Assembly (NCBI GenBank): GCA_029846755.1
Contig: JARWBI010000001.1
Location: forward strand, 868,001-932,000
DNA from: Falsirhodobacter flavus
GTDB lineage: Bacteria; Pseudomonadota; Alphaproteobacteria; Rhodobacterales; Rhodobacteraceae
Direction: 5' to 3'
DNA: 64,000 nucleotides
Within the stretch, counting starts at the first letter, position 1. Each line of letters starts with the position of its first letter. The translations under genes and the position numbers were made by a program. Positions 3,743 to 7,777 of the stretch are shown here, piece after piece. The notes beneath the pieces are model-generated. The model saw nothing but the letters and a program-made list of their open reading frames with translations. It did no database searches and was not told the origin of the DNA.

Positions 3743-4297
3743 TCAGACGCCCCGCGCCAACGCCGCGACGCCGGTGCGCGCCATCTCTCGCAGACCAAGC
3801 GGGCGCATCAGATCGGCGAAGGCGTCGATCTTCTCGGGTGTGCCCGTGATCTCGAACACGAAACTTTCCAGCGTCGAATCCACTACATTGGCGCGGAAGA
3901 TCTCGGCCAGCCGCAGTGCCTCGATCCGGTGATCGCCCTTGCCAGACACCTTGAACAGCGCCAGTTCGCGTTGCACGGCGGGCCCTTCGACGGTCAGGTC
4001 GTGAACCTCGTGCACGGGGACCAGACGGCCAAGCTGGGCCTTGATCTGTTCGATCACCGCTGCCGTTCCGGTCGTCACCACGGTGATGCGCGAACGGTGC
4101 CCCTCGTGGTCGACCTCGGCCACGGTCAGGCTGTCGATGTTGTAGCCGCGACCCGAAAACAGGCCGATCACGCGCGCCAGCACGCCGCTTTCATTGTCGA
4201 CCAGCACGGCCAGCGTGTGCGTCTCGATGATCTCGCCGTTCGGATCGCGCAGGTCATAGGCGGAATGGCTCACGGAGCCTTTCTTGATGTTCAGCAT
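3743..4297 (-). CDS. ilvN: Acetolactate synthase small (regulatory) subunit
   Basis: Regulatory subunit of acetohydroxyacid synthase, which makes the enzyme fully active and sensitive to valine feedback. The 184-residue protein has an N-terminal ACT domain (about residues 26-100, with HTLAVLVDNESGVLARVIGL and the following strand pattern) and the usual C-terminal small-subunit domain with KVSGKGDHRIEALRLAEIFR. It lies nine bases downstream of the catalytic-subunit gene on the same strand, as expected for an ilvIH/ilvBN operon, and so falls under the same upstream attenuator. ilvH is an equally used symbol. Confidence 0.93.
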   Translation of the reverse strand: MLNIKKGSVSHSAYDLRDPNGEIIETHTLAVLVDNESGVLARVIGLFSGRGYNIDSLTVAEVDHEGHRSRITVVTTGTAAVIEQIKAQLGRLVPVHEVHDLTVEGPAVQRELALFKVSGKGDHRIEALRLAEIFRANVVDSTLESFVFEITGTPEKIDAFADLMRPLGLREMARTGVAALARGV

Positions 4298-4306
4298 CCT
4301 GTCCTC

Positions 4307-6058
4307 TTACACCAGCGCCGCGCCGTGGGTTTCGATCACGCCCATCATCTTCGCCTCGCCCAGCAGCATCTCGTTATGCGGCTTGCCCGAGGGGATCATG
4401 GGGAAGCAGTTCTCGTGCTTTTCCACCAGACAGTCGAAGATCACGGGGCCGTCGTAGTCCAGCATCTCGTTGATCGCGTCGTCCAGATCATTGGGGTCGG
4501 AACAGCGGATGCCCTTGCAGCCGAACGCCTCGGCCAGTTTCACGAAATCGGGCAGGCTTTCGGACCACGAATGGCTGTAACGCTGGCCATGCAGCAGGTC
4601 CTGCCACTGGCGCACCATGCCAAGGCGTTCGTTGTTCAGGATGAACTGCTTGACCGGGGCGCGGAACTGCATCGCCGTGCCCATCTCCTGCATGTTCATC
4701 AGCCACGACGCCTCGCCGGCGACGTTGATGACCAGCGCGTCGGGATGGGCGACCTGCACACCGATCGACGCAGGAAGGCCATAACCCATGGTGCCAAGGC
4801 CGCCCGAGGTCATCCAGCGGTTCGGTTGGTCGAAATGCAGATACTGCGCCGCCCACATCTGGTGCTGCCCGACCTCGGTCGTGATGTAGCGGTCTCGCCC
4901 GCGGGTCAGCGCTTCAAGGCGTTCCAACGCGTGCTGCGGCTTGATGGTCTTCTGCGACGGGCGATAGTCGAGGCAGCGCACCGCCTGCCACTCCTTGATC
5001 CGCACCCACCATTGCGTCACCGCCTCGCGGTTCACACGGCTGCCGCGCTGTTTCCACAGGGTCAGCACGTCTTCCAGCACATTGGCCACGTCGCCAAGGA
5101 TCGGCACGTCCACGCGGATGATCTTGTTGATGGACGACGCTTCGATGTCGATATGCACCTTCTTCGATCCGGGCGAGAAATCGGCGACCCGCCCGGTGAT
5201 CCGGTCATCGAACCGCGCACCGATGTTGAACATCGCATCGCAGCCATGCATCGCAAGGTTCGCCTCATACAGCCCGTGCATCCCCAGCATCCCCAGCCAC
5301 AGCTTGCCGCTGGCCGGATAGGCGCCCAGACCCATCAGCGTCGAGGTGACCGGAAATCCCGTTGCCTCGGCCAACTCGCGCAGCAGTTCGGACGCGCGCG
5401 GGCCGGAGTTGATGACCCCGCCGCCTGTATAGAAGACCGGGCGTTCCGCTGTCTCGATCATCTCGACCATACGCTCGATCATGGCCGGGTCGCCCTTCAC
5501 CGTCGGGGCATAGTGGCGCGGCTTGGTCGGGGCAGGGCCGACGTAATCGGCGGTCGCGAACTGCACGTCCTTGGGAATGTCGATCAGCACCGGACCCGGG
5601 CGGCCCGAGGTTGCGACGTGAAAGCCGTTATGGATCGTCTCGGACAGTTTCGCCGGGTCCTTCACCAGCCAGTTATGCTTGGTGCAGGCGCGGGTGATGC
5701 CGACGGTGTCGGCCTCCTGGAACCCGTCGGTGCCGATCAGGAAGGTCGGAACCTGACCCGACAGCACGACCAGCGGGATGGAATCCAGCAGCGCGTCAGT
5801 CAGGCCGGTGACCGCATTGGTCGCGCCGGGGCCGGAGGTGACCAGCACCACGCCGGGTTTGCCGGTCGATCTGGCATAGCCTTCGGCCATGTGGACCGCG
5901 CCCTGTTCGTGACGGACCAGAACGTGCTTGATGTCGTTCTGCTGGAAAATCTCGTCATAGATCGGAAGGACGGCGCCGCCGGGATAGCCGAAGACCACCT
6001 CGACCCCCTGATCCTTCAGGGCCTGAACCACCATCTTCGCGCCGCTCATCTGCGTCAT
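4307..6058 (-). CDS. ilvI: Acetolactate synthase large (catalytic) subunit
   Basis: Thiamine-diphosphate and FAD-dependent enzyme that condenses two pyruvates (or pyruvate plus 2-oxobutyrate) in the first common step of valine, leucine and isoleucine synthesis. The 583 residues contain the N-terminal TPP domain with the catalytic glutamate in LVRHEQGAVHMAEGYAR (about residues 48-62), the central FAD domain, and the C-terminal TPP domain. The usual GDG/GDA of the TPP motif reads GEASWLMNMQEMG, which I believe is a variant common in Rhodobacteraceae. AGGAAGGA lies 7 bases upstream of the chosen ATG. Expression is probably set by the leader peptide and attenuator at 6089-6187. The symbol could equally be ilvB. 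Confidence 0.93.
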   Translation of the reverse strand: MTQMSGAKMVVQALKDQGVEVVFGYPGGAVLPIYDEIFQQNDIKHVLVRHEQGAVHMAEGYARSTGKPGVVLVTSGPGATNAVTGLTDALLDSIPLVVLSGQVPTFLIGTDGFQEADTVGITRACTKHNWLVKDPAKLSETIHNGFHVATSGRPGPVLIDIPKDVQFATADYVGPAPTKPRHYAPTVKGDPAMIERMVEMIETAERPVFYTGGGVINSGPRASELLRELAEATGFPVTSTLMGLGAYPASGKLWLGMLGMHGLYEANLAMHGCDAMFNIGARFDDRITGRVADFSPGSKKVHIDIEASSINKIIRVDVPILGDVANVLEDVLTLWKQRGSRVNREAVTQWWVRIKEWQAVRCLDYRPSQKTIKPQHALERLEALTRGRDRYITTEVGQHQMWAAQYLHFDQPNRWMTSGGLGTMGYGLPASIGVQVAHPDALVINVAGEASWLMNMQEMGTAMQFRAPVKQFILNNERLGMVRQWQDLLHGQRYSHSWSESLPDFVKLAEAFGCKGIRCSDPNDLDDAINEMLDYDGPVIFDCLVEKHENCFPMIPSGKPHNEMLLGEAKMMGVIETHGAALV

Positions 6059-6088
6059 GTGCCTGTCCTTCCTCGCCTCTTTCGCAAC

Positions 6089-6114
6089 AAAAAGCCCCCG
6101 AGGTCATCGGGGGC
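6089..6114 (-). terminator. Intrinsic terminator in the ilvI leader (attenuator)
   Basis: In the minus-strand RNA an 8-bp perfect stem, GCCCCCGA / TCGGGGGC (plus-strand arms 6107-6114 and 6094-6101), closes a 5-base loop and is followed at once by five U residues (6089-6093). It sits only 30 bases before the ilvI start codon and downstream of a short leader reading frame, so it cannot be a terminator for an upstream gene that must be isolated. The 5' arm overlaps the sequence that would form a competing antiterminator with the leader (6109-6121 pairing with 6147-6163). Confidence 0.85.
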
Positions 6115-6163
6115 GCATGGGAACCGTTATGGTCAACCGTTACCGGCCCATGCGCGCATCCCC
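6109..6163 (-). promoter_or_regulatory. Antiterminator stem of the ilv attenuator
   Basis: Minus-strand GCGCATGGG inside the leader reading frame (6147-6155) is exactly complementary to CCCATGCGC (6113-6121), which runs into the first arm of the terminator. After a 4-base bulge the pairing can continue as GGGG (6160-6163) with CCCC (6109-6112). Forming this stem removes the 5' arm of the terminator. A ribosome that reaches the leader stop codon would cover 6147-6155 and let the terminator form, whereas one stalled at the Ile/Val/Leu codons leaves it free. The pairing is seen directly; the mechanism is inferred from classical amino-acid attenuation. Confidence 0.7.
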
Positions 6164-6187
6164 TACAAGACCTACGATGGAAGGCAT
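6140..6187 (-). CDS. ilv leader peptide (branched-chain amino acid attenuator)
   Basis: A 15-codon reading frame, MPSIVGLVGDARMGR, with AAGGGGA seven bases before its ATG and a TAA stop. Codons 4-8 read Ile-Val-Gly-Leu-Val, and both Val codons are GTA, a codon little used in this GC-rich region. That density of the three products of the downstream pathway in so short a peptide, placed between a candidate promoter and a terminator, marks it as the sensor of an ilvIN attenuator. The stop codon lies 25 bases before the terminator stem. It is too short to be a functional protein. Confidence 0.75.
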   Translation of the reverse strand: MPSIVGLVGDARMGR

Positions 6188-6215
6188 AAGCCAGTCCCCT
6201 TGTTGCGATGAAGGC

Positions 6216-6244
6216 AACTTAGACGGGCGGTTTGGCAAGGTCAA
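6216..6244 (-). promoter_or_regulatory. Candidate promoter of the ilv leader
   Basis: Minus-strand TTGACC (plus 6239-6244; five of six matches to the -35 consensus) and TAAGTT (6216-6221; a weak -10) are separated by 17 bases. Transcription would begin about 20-25 bases before the leader peptide start. It is a pattern match only; another TTGACG further upstream near 6268 is an alternative. Confidence 0.4.
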
Positions 6245-6318: not shown

Positions 6319-6945
6319 TCACTCGTCGTCGCGGACCAGCCTGAGATGCGGCTTGCCACGCGGCACGAAGGGTGCGGGCTCCTCGGCGAAGCCGGGGGTG
6401 CGTGTCCCGGTCAGGATACGCTCCTCCAGTGCGCGGCCGCCGGTGAAACGGCGCGGGCTGCGTCCGATGATCCCTTCGGTCGCCAGGCAGCCGAGCGCCA
6501 GATCCGCGCCGCCTTCGCCCTTGACCGGCAACAGGATCATGCGCCCCGAAAGCGCTGGCCGCCCGACGCCCCGGCCCGCGTCGACGCACAGATCGAGGAT
6601 GCAGGGCGTGGCGAAGACCCGCTCGATCCGTGGGGCGATTTCGTCCCGGTCCCCGGGTTCGAACAGCGACGAAAAAGGCATCCCGCGCACATCCATCCCC
6701 ATGATGTCGGACAGGTGCATCCCGGCAAGACGGAACCGCGCGATGCCGGGCGCGATCCGTTCGATCAGGAAGGAATTCGCCAGCGCTCCCTCGATCCCGC
6801 GCGGATCGATCCGGCTGCGCTGCGGCAGCCTGCCATCCTCGCGCAGCGCCTCCCAATAGGCACGGACCTGCGCGATCATCGCGAATCGAACAGACGTCAT
6901 TCCGTTCTCCGTCACAGCCCGCCGGGCCGGGAAATCAATCAGCAT
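6319..6945 (-). CDS. PAS-domain protein of the alphaproteobacterial PAS_5 type
   Basis: A 208-residue soluble protein that appears to be a stand-alone PAS domain of the family I know as PAS_5, common in alphaproteobacteria and of unknown ligand. The family pattern is visible: VRAYWEALREDGRLPQRSRIDP near the start, then a short-helix and strand run with ANSFLIERIAPGIARFRLAG and DVRGMPFSSLFEPGDRDE. No output domain is attached. The start at 6945 has GGAG eight bases upstream; an ATG at 6900 with GGAG six bases upstream is equally good and would give 193 residues. It stands alone, divergent from gmk. Confidence 0.75.
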   Translation of the reverse strand: MLIDFPARRAVTENGMTSVRFAMIAQVRAYWEALREDGRLPQRSRIDPRGIEGALANSFLIERIAPGIARFRLAGMHLSDIMGMDVRGMPFSSLFEPGDRDEIAPRIERVFATPCILDLCVDAGRGVGRPALSGRMILLPVKGEGGADLALGCLATEGIIGRSPRRFTGGRALEERILTGTRTPGFAEEPAPFVPRGKPHLRLVRDDE

Positions 6946-7144
6946 ACTATACACTCCACACAAGGGTCGCACTATGGGGTGCCGCGCCGGAAACGTCGGC
7001 AGGCTGCACGAGACCCTTTTCGCCAGATAGCAGCTTTTCGAGCGGAGGCGCGTGAAAGATGAATGAATGGTAAACGGCTGATCGCGCTTGACCTTGGGGG
7101 CGGGTTCGCCCAGATGCGGGCTGAACGGCAAAAGGGGGCCAGAC

Positions 7145-7777
7145 ATGCGGCGCGGACTTCTTCTGATCCTCTCCTCGCCTTCGGGCGCGGGCAAATCGAC
7201 GCTGTCGCGGCGGATCATGGACTGGGATCCGACGATCCGCTTCTCGGTCTCGGCGACGACCCGCGCGCCAAGGCCGGGCGAACAGGACGGGCGCGAATAT
7301 TACTTCCGCACGCGCGAGGATTTTCAGGATCTGGTCGCGAACGGGCAGATGCTGGAACATGCCGAAGTGTTCGGCAACTTCTATGGCAGCCCGCGCGGAC
7401 CTGTGGAACAGGCGATGCTCGATGGGCGCGACACGCTGTTCGACATCGACTGGCAGGGCGGGCAGCAGATCCGCAACTCGGCCCTTGGGCGCGATGTGGT
7501 TTCGGTCTTCGTGCTGCCACCCTCCATCGCCGAGCTGGAGCGTCGCCTGCGCGGACGCGCGCAGGACAGCGAGGAGGTCATCGCCGGCCGGATGGCGAAA
7601 AGCCGCGACGAGATCAGCCACTGGGCGGAATATGACTATGTCCTCGTCAACAACGACATAGATACTGCGGAACAGGAGCTTCGGACCATCCTCATGGCCG
7701 AGCGCCTGCGCCGCGATCGCCAGCCCATGCTGAACGACTTCGTCCGCGGCCTGAACGGGGAGTTCGAGAGAAGATGA
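7145..7777 (+). CDS. gmk: Guanylate kinase
   Basis: Phosphorylates GMP to GDP with ATP, an essential step of guanine nucleotide synthesis. The 210-residue protein has the P-loop [10 protein letters not shown] near residues 9-18, the GMP-binding region with [14 protein letters not shown] and DGREYYF, and the FGNFYGSP segment. The start at 7145 follows AAAGGGGG by 6-7 bases; an upstream in-frame ATG at 7088 would add 19 unconserved residues. It overlaps the next gene by four bases (ATGA). In many relatives a yicC-like gene precedes gmk; none does here. Confidence 0.96.

Follow-up and report, generated by a model that had tools for sequence, protein, structure and literature searches.

What regulates the acetolactate synthase genes ilvI and ilvN of Falsirhodobacter flavus, and does the short region in front of them do more than carry a promoter? 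An initial annotation of the window, by which we mean the whole stretch of 64,000 nucleotides that was analysed, had read this region as a leader-peptide attenuator, and every element that it named is present on the minus strand at the positions given below. Our comparative analysis reveals that the region holds a genuine attenuator of the leader-peptide type, conserved and of a kind already known, and it is very probably a ribosome-mediated transcription attenuator of ilvI-ilvN which senses the supply of isoleucine, leucine and valine. That reading is supported by the anatomy of the element, its conservation, the covariation of its stems, the bias of its leader toward rare codons and the prediction that closure of the terminator base depends on where the ribosome stands. 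Several features had gone unnoticed in the initial annotation: a hairpin around the leader stop codon (P2), a probable long-range helix (P0) whose 3' arm runs beyond the annotated coordinates, the very few bases that antiterminator and terminator have in common, apparent degeneration of the element among the window's congeners, and relatives elsewhere.

Anatomy of the ilvI leader

On the minus strand the order is PAS-domain gene, promoter, leader, arm pair, terminator, five U residues, ilvI and ilvN, with the following parts (window coordinates).

6319-7218, minus strand: frame of the PAS-domain gene upstream of the element (Pfam)
6239-6244, minus strand: -35 box TTGACC, of the conserved promoter pattern
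6216-6221, minus strand: -10 box TAAGTT, with a 17-nt spacer to the -35 box
6197-6208, minus strand: 5' arm of P0, UCGCAACAAGGG, making 12 pairs with 6093-6082 (covariation peak and sister-pair swap test)
6140-6187, minus strand: leader frame MPSIVGLVGDARMGR-TAA, from the ATG at 6187 to the TAA at 6140
6164-6178, minus strand: control codons ATC GTA GGT CTT GTA
6147-6155, minus strand: antiterminator arm A, GCGCAUGGG, within the last codons of the leader (covarying)
6137-6146, minus strand: hairpin P2, CCG-GUAA-CGG, whose GNRA-type loop holds the leader stop codon (covarying)
6122-6134, minus strand: P3, a weak hairpin, GACC-AUAAC-GGUU, within the arm loop (predicted minimum-energy fold)
6113-6121, minus strand: antiterminator arm B, CCCAUGCGC, its last two bases common with the terminator
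6094-6114, minus strand: intrinsic terminator stem-loop, GCCCCCGA-UGACC-UCGGGGGC
6089-6093, minus strand: U-tract (TTTTT), directly 3' of the terminator stem
6082-6093, minus strand: 3' arm of P0, UUUUUGUUGCGA, the U-tract plus seven further bases, complete only on read-through
4307-6058, minus strand: ilvI, acetolactate synthase large subunit (Pfam PF02775, PF02776 and PF00205)
3743-4297, minus strand: ilvN, acetolactate synthase small subunit (Pfam PF10369 and PF22629)

The candidate promoter, the 15-codon leader with its own ribosome-binding site (AAGGGG at 6201-6196, 8 nt 5' of the ATG), the run Ile-Val-Gly-Leu-Val at leader codons 4-8 and the perfect 8-bp terminator with its five U residues, separated by 30 bases from the ilvI ATG at 6058, are all as the initial annotation had described them. 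So is its 9-bp antiterminator pairing, in which GCGCATGGG (6155-6147) is perfectly complementary to CCCATGCGC (6121-6113). The four additional G-C pairs by which this pairing was said to be extendable do exist (6163-6160 with 6112-6109, spanning a bulge of 4 nt), yet only 7 of the 186 family members described below could extend the helix by four pairs and, in the window, the extension brings no thermodynamic gain in the RNA that is present at the termination decision.

A generic promoter scan of the window listed no promoter at the element, and a search of the whole 64-kb window against Rfam at gathering scores returned no matches, including to any riboswitch or T-box. On the same strand and 3' of ilvN lies a Na+/H+ antiporter gene (PF06965; 2500-3681, minus strand).

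Conservation and covariation across the Rhodobacteraceae

In the window, the leader stretch ending at the U-tract (122 nt) folds at -51 kcal/mol (z -2.16), with 8 of 200 shuffles folding as well. As this folding energy was only modest and not decisive, we examined conservation, which settles the question of whether the structure is above chance. Upstream regions of ilvI were drawn from 7 genomes of the window's genus and 198 of its family (194 with ilvI at threshold), the family search being given as 30 loci of which two were already in the sample; further ilvI upstreams came from 80 loci of named GTDB representatives and from 100 additional stretches. The resulting 218 loci (L-numbers are our locus handles, L001 being the window) yielded 215 ilvI upstreams, L002-L004 being other TPP enzymes, and 208 of these were distinct.

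A terminator, an adjacent arm pair and an Ile/Leu/Val-rich leader were parsed in 186 of the 208 distinct family upstreams, so that the branched-chain codons and both stems are kept in the comparison with related Rhodobacteraceae that the initial annotation had suggested. This set was selected on arms, terminator and leader, and counts of those parts within it are therefore conditional on the selection; P0 played no role in choosing it, and L007 was kept with a wrongly picked leader. By eye, the remaining 22 upstreams comprise 15 without a recognisable element and seven that are divergent or degenerate (L009, L024, L088, L112, L172, L201 and L218).

For covariation we used an alignment (A1) of 120 of the 171 dereplicated cores, taken in locus order up to L160 with L007 and L081 removed by hand. 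The arm pair together with P2 was paired in 95.0% of cells and showed 6 doubly changed pairs against 1.1 in shuffled alignments, and the terminator together with P2 was paired in 94.8% of cells, with 8 such pairs and 41 such cells against 2.3 and 11.4. None of 500 shuffles reached these values for the arm pair, the stop-codon hairpin and the terminator, although for some measures relatedness alone may beat shuffles. An intrinsic terminator before the first gene is thus both present in the window and marked by compensatory changes in the family. The stem ends are less constant: the outermost arm pair is absent in 45 of the 120 aligned cores and the innermost terminator pair fails in 52.

The hairpin P2 places the leader stop codon in a loop that reads G-UAA or G-UGA (GNRA-type) in 164 of the 186 upstreams and G-UAG in 11. 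Three or more pairs close this loop in 149 of 186, whereas joining sides from two different species yields 127 (maximum 133), and a stop codon in a hairpin loop can also be seen by eye in the divergent, low-similarity members L112, L171, L172, L325 and L219. Antiterminator and terminator share 2-3 nt in 172 of 186.

Promoter and leader peptide

The promoter type of the window is also conserved. In 169 of 186 upstreams a TTGAC-N16..19-TANNNT pattern precedes the leader ATG, against a mean of 0.45 in shuffled sequences, and the spacing is 17 in 161 of these 169. Between promoter and operon a short frame with a ribosome-binding site is conserved, the translation of which is predicted; it has 15 codons in 156 of 186 cases, contains 4-6 Ile/Leu/Val codons in 174, and ends in the tail RMGR in 152. 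Counted back from the stop, positions -12 to -8 each carry a branched-chain residue in 160-183 of the 186 leaders.

The control codons are strongly biased toward rare synonymous codons. The initial annotation had remarked on the local rarity of GTA, and across the family this codon accounts for 271 of 478 leader Val codons (57%); of the 4175 Val codons in 94 ilvI genes it makes up 2.5% (odds ratio 50, p 1e-213). Similarly, CTA makes up 28% in leaders against 1% in ilvI, and ATT 48% against 9%. Together with the conservation, the compensatory changes and the predicted switch point described next, this bias supports the leader-peptide attenuator reading. The element provides the Rhodobacteraceae, a large and ecologically important family, with a defined branched-chain switch and a testable base-pair map.

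A predicted switch at the base of the terminator

We modelled the terminator in RNA left free from successive positions of the leader. Averaged over the 186 upstreams, the predicted probability of the basal two terminator pairs was 0.45 with the RNA free from codon -5, 0.90 from codon -4 and 0.97 from the stop, and the jump from 0.45 to 0.90 places the switch point between codons -5 and -4. As a ribosome reaches about four codons past its A site, one whose A site is at -12 to -9 would leave the switch point exposed and one at the stop would cover it. In this model the control codons at -12 to -8 would sit about where the predicted switch requires. For comparisons of energy, means over the 186 upstreams were spoiled by impossible loops, and the overlap counts and single-locus values were used. 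The model keeps the central part of the terminator stem paired (mean 0.94), and the two competing states hardly differ in energy in the window (-29.9 versus -30.3 kcal/mol), so that exclusion has to come from the stem base and from sterics. With the RNA free from codon -8, mean basal pairing is 0.52 in the family and 0.94 in the window, and a stall at the first control codons would thus antiterminate poorly there.

From the position of the -10 box we infer a transcription start near 6209, and the 15-codon leader would be translated immediately. A shortage of charged Val-, Leu- or Ile-tRNA would stall the ribosome at the control codons (-12 to -8) and leave arm A, which begins about five codons before the stop, free to pair with arm B, with P2 inside the arm loop helping the two arms to meet. 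The A-B helix would then lie flush against the terminator base, take up its first 2-3 bases and block closure beside the U-tract, and with the base unclosed RNA polymerase would continue into ilvI. When amino acids are sufficient, the ribosome would reach the stop and cover arm A and P2, the terminator would close fully and transcription would end. The antiterminator would thus act by denying closure of the stem base, perhaps aided by flush helices inside the polymerase. This raises the question of whether antitermination can work by blocking the base of the terminator stem when the two structures have only 2-3 bases in common.

The smallness of that overlap, along with the modelled mid-stem that stays paired, invites another reading in which leader control is real but exerted differently, the arm pair being a timing or pausing hairpin, or a sensor of ribosome release, that coexists with the terminator. 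The two hairpins are in fact separate in the Sinorhizobium form of the element described below, and both form in its predicted fold. We nevertheless consider this rather unlikely, as the 2-3 nt overlap recurs in almost the whole set (172 of 186), the distance of the control codons fits the point at which arm A becomes covered, and starvation must free arm A, so that a pairing that favoured termination would run contrary to what a biosynthetic operon needs. Less probable still is that the released leader RNA or peptide acts in trans and that the conserved RMGR tail (152 of 186) reflects such a role. There is precedent in rnTrpL and peTrpL of Sinorhizobium, for which trans roles are reported in the accessible part of PMC10117765, and a Rhizobiales relative of our element is filed in Rfam as an sRNA; yet the tail codons are the antiterminator arm, so that RNA pairing alone suffices as an explanation, and the divergent loci L108, L140 and L179 alter the tail and the partner arm together. 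Finally, the terminator does lie downstream of a PAS-domain gene on the same strand and the folding energy is only mildly unusual, as would be expected if it simply ended that gene and the small frame were there by chance, with no regulation at all. A conserved promoter between the PAS gene and the terminator, the conserved length and codon bias of the leader and the covariation of the stems leave this reading with practically no probability.

A probable long-range helix between the 5' end and the U-tract

The putative helix P0 joins the 5' end and the leader ribosome-binding site to the U-tract and the bases that follow it. In a model-free scan of complementarity over the 186 upstreams, which compared 140 pairs of sequence windows within and between species, P0 was the single outstanding peak (+2.64, against a standard deviation of 0.34 for the map), the next values (0.6-0.8) belonging to windows that overlap the peak. 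Its two sides, 16 bases each, lie at -24 to -9 relative to the leader ATG and immediately 3' of the terminator stem, and its duplex energies average -8.8 within species against -7.0 between species. We also swapped partners between 92 nearest pairs, which are only roughly sisters as they were judged from 51 bases of ilvI. Of these, 81 were informative: 55 favoured their own partner, 22 the swapped partner and 4 neither (p 2e-4 for 55 of 77 decided pairs; Wilcoxon 4e-7). By a strict criterion, namely a contiguous helix with at least four Watson-Crick pairs beyond the U-run, P0 is found in 65 of 186 upstreams against 29.8 (maximum 45) on mixing partners, and it is therefore not universal. In the nearest relative (L005, 94% identical in IlvI), which has exactly the same leader region as Falsirhodobacter xinxiangensis L039, a locus filed as Rhodobacter, UCGCAGCAGAGG pairs with UUUUUGCUGCGA, with an A-U to G-C change compensated relative to the window. 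In the window, the leader including the 3' arm of P0 (135 nt) folds at -61 kcal/mol (z -3.17).

The helix is fairly likely to be real. The limited strict count and the 22 of 77 decided pairs that prefer a swapped partner would fit shared ancestry of two independently conserved motifs, with P0 itself non-functional, but the height of the scan peak, the preference of 55 decided pairs for their own partner and the compensated change between the window and its nearest relative make this unlikely, although we give it somewhat more weight than any alternative considered for the arm pair. If transcription starts near 6209, the 5' arm of P0 would comprise the extreme 5' end of the message together with part of the leader ribosome-binding site. 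Most of its 3' arm is transcribed after the terminator has been passed, so P0 should not influence the decision. Our guess is that, after read-through, P0 most likely keeps more ribosomes from entering the leader and shields the 5' end of the message, which raises the question of whether the tail of a terminator can act, once read through, on the start of its own message. In the Rhizobiales relatives, of which 6 of 9 loci could be parsed, a suggestive P0-like pairing of the start codon with the U-tract showed no covariation (scores of 13-15 for cognate pairs; mean of 13.9 after mixing).

Apparent decay in the window's genus

The initial annotation had called the leader of the window, with four regulatory codons, much leaner than enteric leaders. 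This fits the window's genus, but across the family leaders most often have five Ile/Leu/Val codons (105 of 186), and 24 have four. Among the 7 genomes of the genus, four control codons are found in the window, L005, L006 and L010, two in L009 (both Val), and one, with a mismatched arm, in L007 as read by hand; L008 is without the element. The genus thus seems to be losing the switch, and the lean leader belongs to such a lineage. No recognisable element was found at any of the nine named Paracoccus loci in the sample (L064, L073, L076, L078, L083, L087, L091, L103 and L118), all of which belong to the 22 upstreams outside the set of 186.

Comparison with known attenuators

The ilvGMEDA, ilvBN and leu attenuators of enterobacteria combine control codons for the products of the pathway with a terminator and an alternative pairing, and their ilv and leu leaders are longer and richer in control codons. 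Compared with these, the leaders of this family have 15 codons with about five control codons and the overlap of antiterminator and terminator is minimal. A non-systematic look for a conserved 1:2 protector hairpin in this family identified none.

Among the Alphaproteobacteria, the accessible part of PMC4117421 describes attenuation by the ilvBN leader of Caulobacter crescentus, with Ile/Val codons and a rho-independent terminator, and that of PMC1273637 describes an 'ilvB leader peptide' of alpha-proteobacteria. Compared by description, these likewise have an Ile/Val-codon leader before an acetolactate synthase operon under terminator control; the accessible parts of both sources make no mention of a stop-codon hairpin or of P0. 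In the same order as the window, uORFC-8-2 is a cysS attenuator of Rhodobacterales that also works by leader-peptide attenuation with a terminator (PMC8632094, in its accessible part), but it has Cys codons, stands before cysS and differs in structure; the same part of that source names no ilv motif for Rhodobacterales. The element goes unmentioned in the accessible parts of PMC2965389, PMC8632094 and PMC10117765, and the words ilv, attenuator and leader peptide are absent from PMC3738593. Within a partial coverage of the literature on attenuators of Rhodobacteraceae and Rhodobacter, ilvI leaders, long-range pairing and transporter leaders, the element was not found. As far as could be seen, the stop-codon hairpin, the minimal overlap, P0, the decay in the genus and, from the section that follows, the transporter copies and the re-reading of Atu_C8 are new.

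Relatives before transporter genes and the Rfam family Atu_C8

In the genome of the window, a covariance model of the core (R1) gave a single convincing site, at 82.5 bits with the runner-up at 22, and matches of 20-30 bits were disregarded as being at the level of this background. Among 385 genomes of the class, R1 identified 15 places above 40 bits: five ilvI sites of the Rhodobacteraceae (L223 and L231-L234) and ten in other families (L235-L244). With an eleventh at 34.5 bits (L245), all of the other-family sites, which span several alphaproteobacterial families, lie before a Bcr/CflA-type MFS transporter; of four members tested against NCBIfam TIGR00710, three scored over the cut-off and one just under it. 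The transporter leaders are mostly rich in Val, for example MNPKSVVVVVSRRCMVR, with L243 and L245 as exceptions, which raises the question of why a Bcr/CflA-type carrier would answer to valine. At 15 transporter loci of at least 48% identity, the module is present in ten (one as RF02502) and absent from five (L265, L268, L271, L272 and L274).

The module also stands before the MFS gene on conjugative plasmids (L320-L322) of Roseobacter denitrificans (66 bits), Phaeobacter piscinae (59) and Leisingera caerulea (55); 4 of 6 plasmid transporter records and 8 of 16 plasmid ilvI records were covered. On the Agrobacterium plasmid pAt2, a TPP riboswitch (L323, 1324-1440) stands instead before a homologous MFS gene, so that related carriers are wired to different signals.

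The Rfam family RF02502 (Atu_C8), filed as a Rhizobiales sRNA, occurs within about 60 nt before ilvI on pSymB of Sinorhizobium meliloti (121.1 bits; L325, 621-741), in Sinorhizobium sp. K101 (121.1 bits; L373, 521-641) and in a Shinella sp. (113.8 bits; L374, 519-639). These Rhizobiaceae loci have the leader MKNFAVILVVGRRMGRMV, which is identical in both Sinorhizobium copies, the arms GGCGCAUGGG/CCCAUGCGC, a stop codon in a hairpin and a terminator, and thus share with our family both the place before ilvI and the plan of a Val/Leu/Ile leader, stop hairpin, arms and terminator. Unlike the 2-3 nt overlap of the Rhodobacteraceae, the Sinorhizobium form has arm pair and terminator without overlap, which speaks against one common mode of antitermination. 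In the family that we label f107, all six over-threshold RF02502 copies among 36 genomes searched precede the same Bcr/CflA-type transporter. An Atu_C8 match at L219, with a LysR gene and an MFS gene as neighbours, had been taken for a chance match, a view that was overturned by the transporter link and then by L325 before ilvI. Given its leader, arms and position, Atu_C8 looks like an attenuator leader RNA, and this suggests that the Rfam entry should be re-read as an ilvI leader; the name was not found in the literature searched, the coverage of which was partial.

The window itself scored 18.4 bits against RF02502, under the gathering score of 50, with the full-length model aligned at the right place. 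When 13 sources were searched together, L077, L098 and L014 scored 23-30 bits, also below the gathering score, and the other ten, L001 among them, gave no match. The element of the window is a relative of RF02502 and, by the Rfam threshold, not a member. RF02502 gave no match at two plasmid-borne ilvI copies of Rhizobium, one of Methylobacterium and one of Sphingomonas. A joint reading, in which P0 would act as a lock after the decision, turning off the leader and covering the 5' end of messages that escaped termination, the module would also serve the transporter, and Atu_C8 would be the same module, is as a whole less likely than not.

A search of 70 upstreams from outside the Rhodobacteraceae (68 of ilvI and two named plasmid loci) with a descriptor of the element returned 2 of 70, namely L325 and a weak match at L307; it missed the degenerate L324 and is thus not exhaustive. 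At L307 and at L317, in another family, short leaders with an LVLI run and a stop codon in a hairpin loop lie upstream of ilvI with different arms, and these are possibly a separate type of attenuator.
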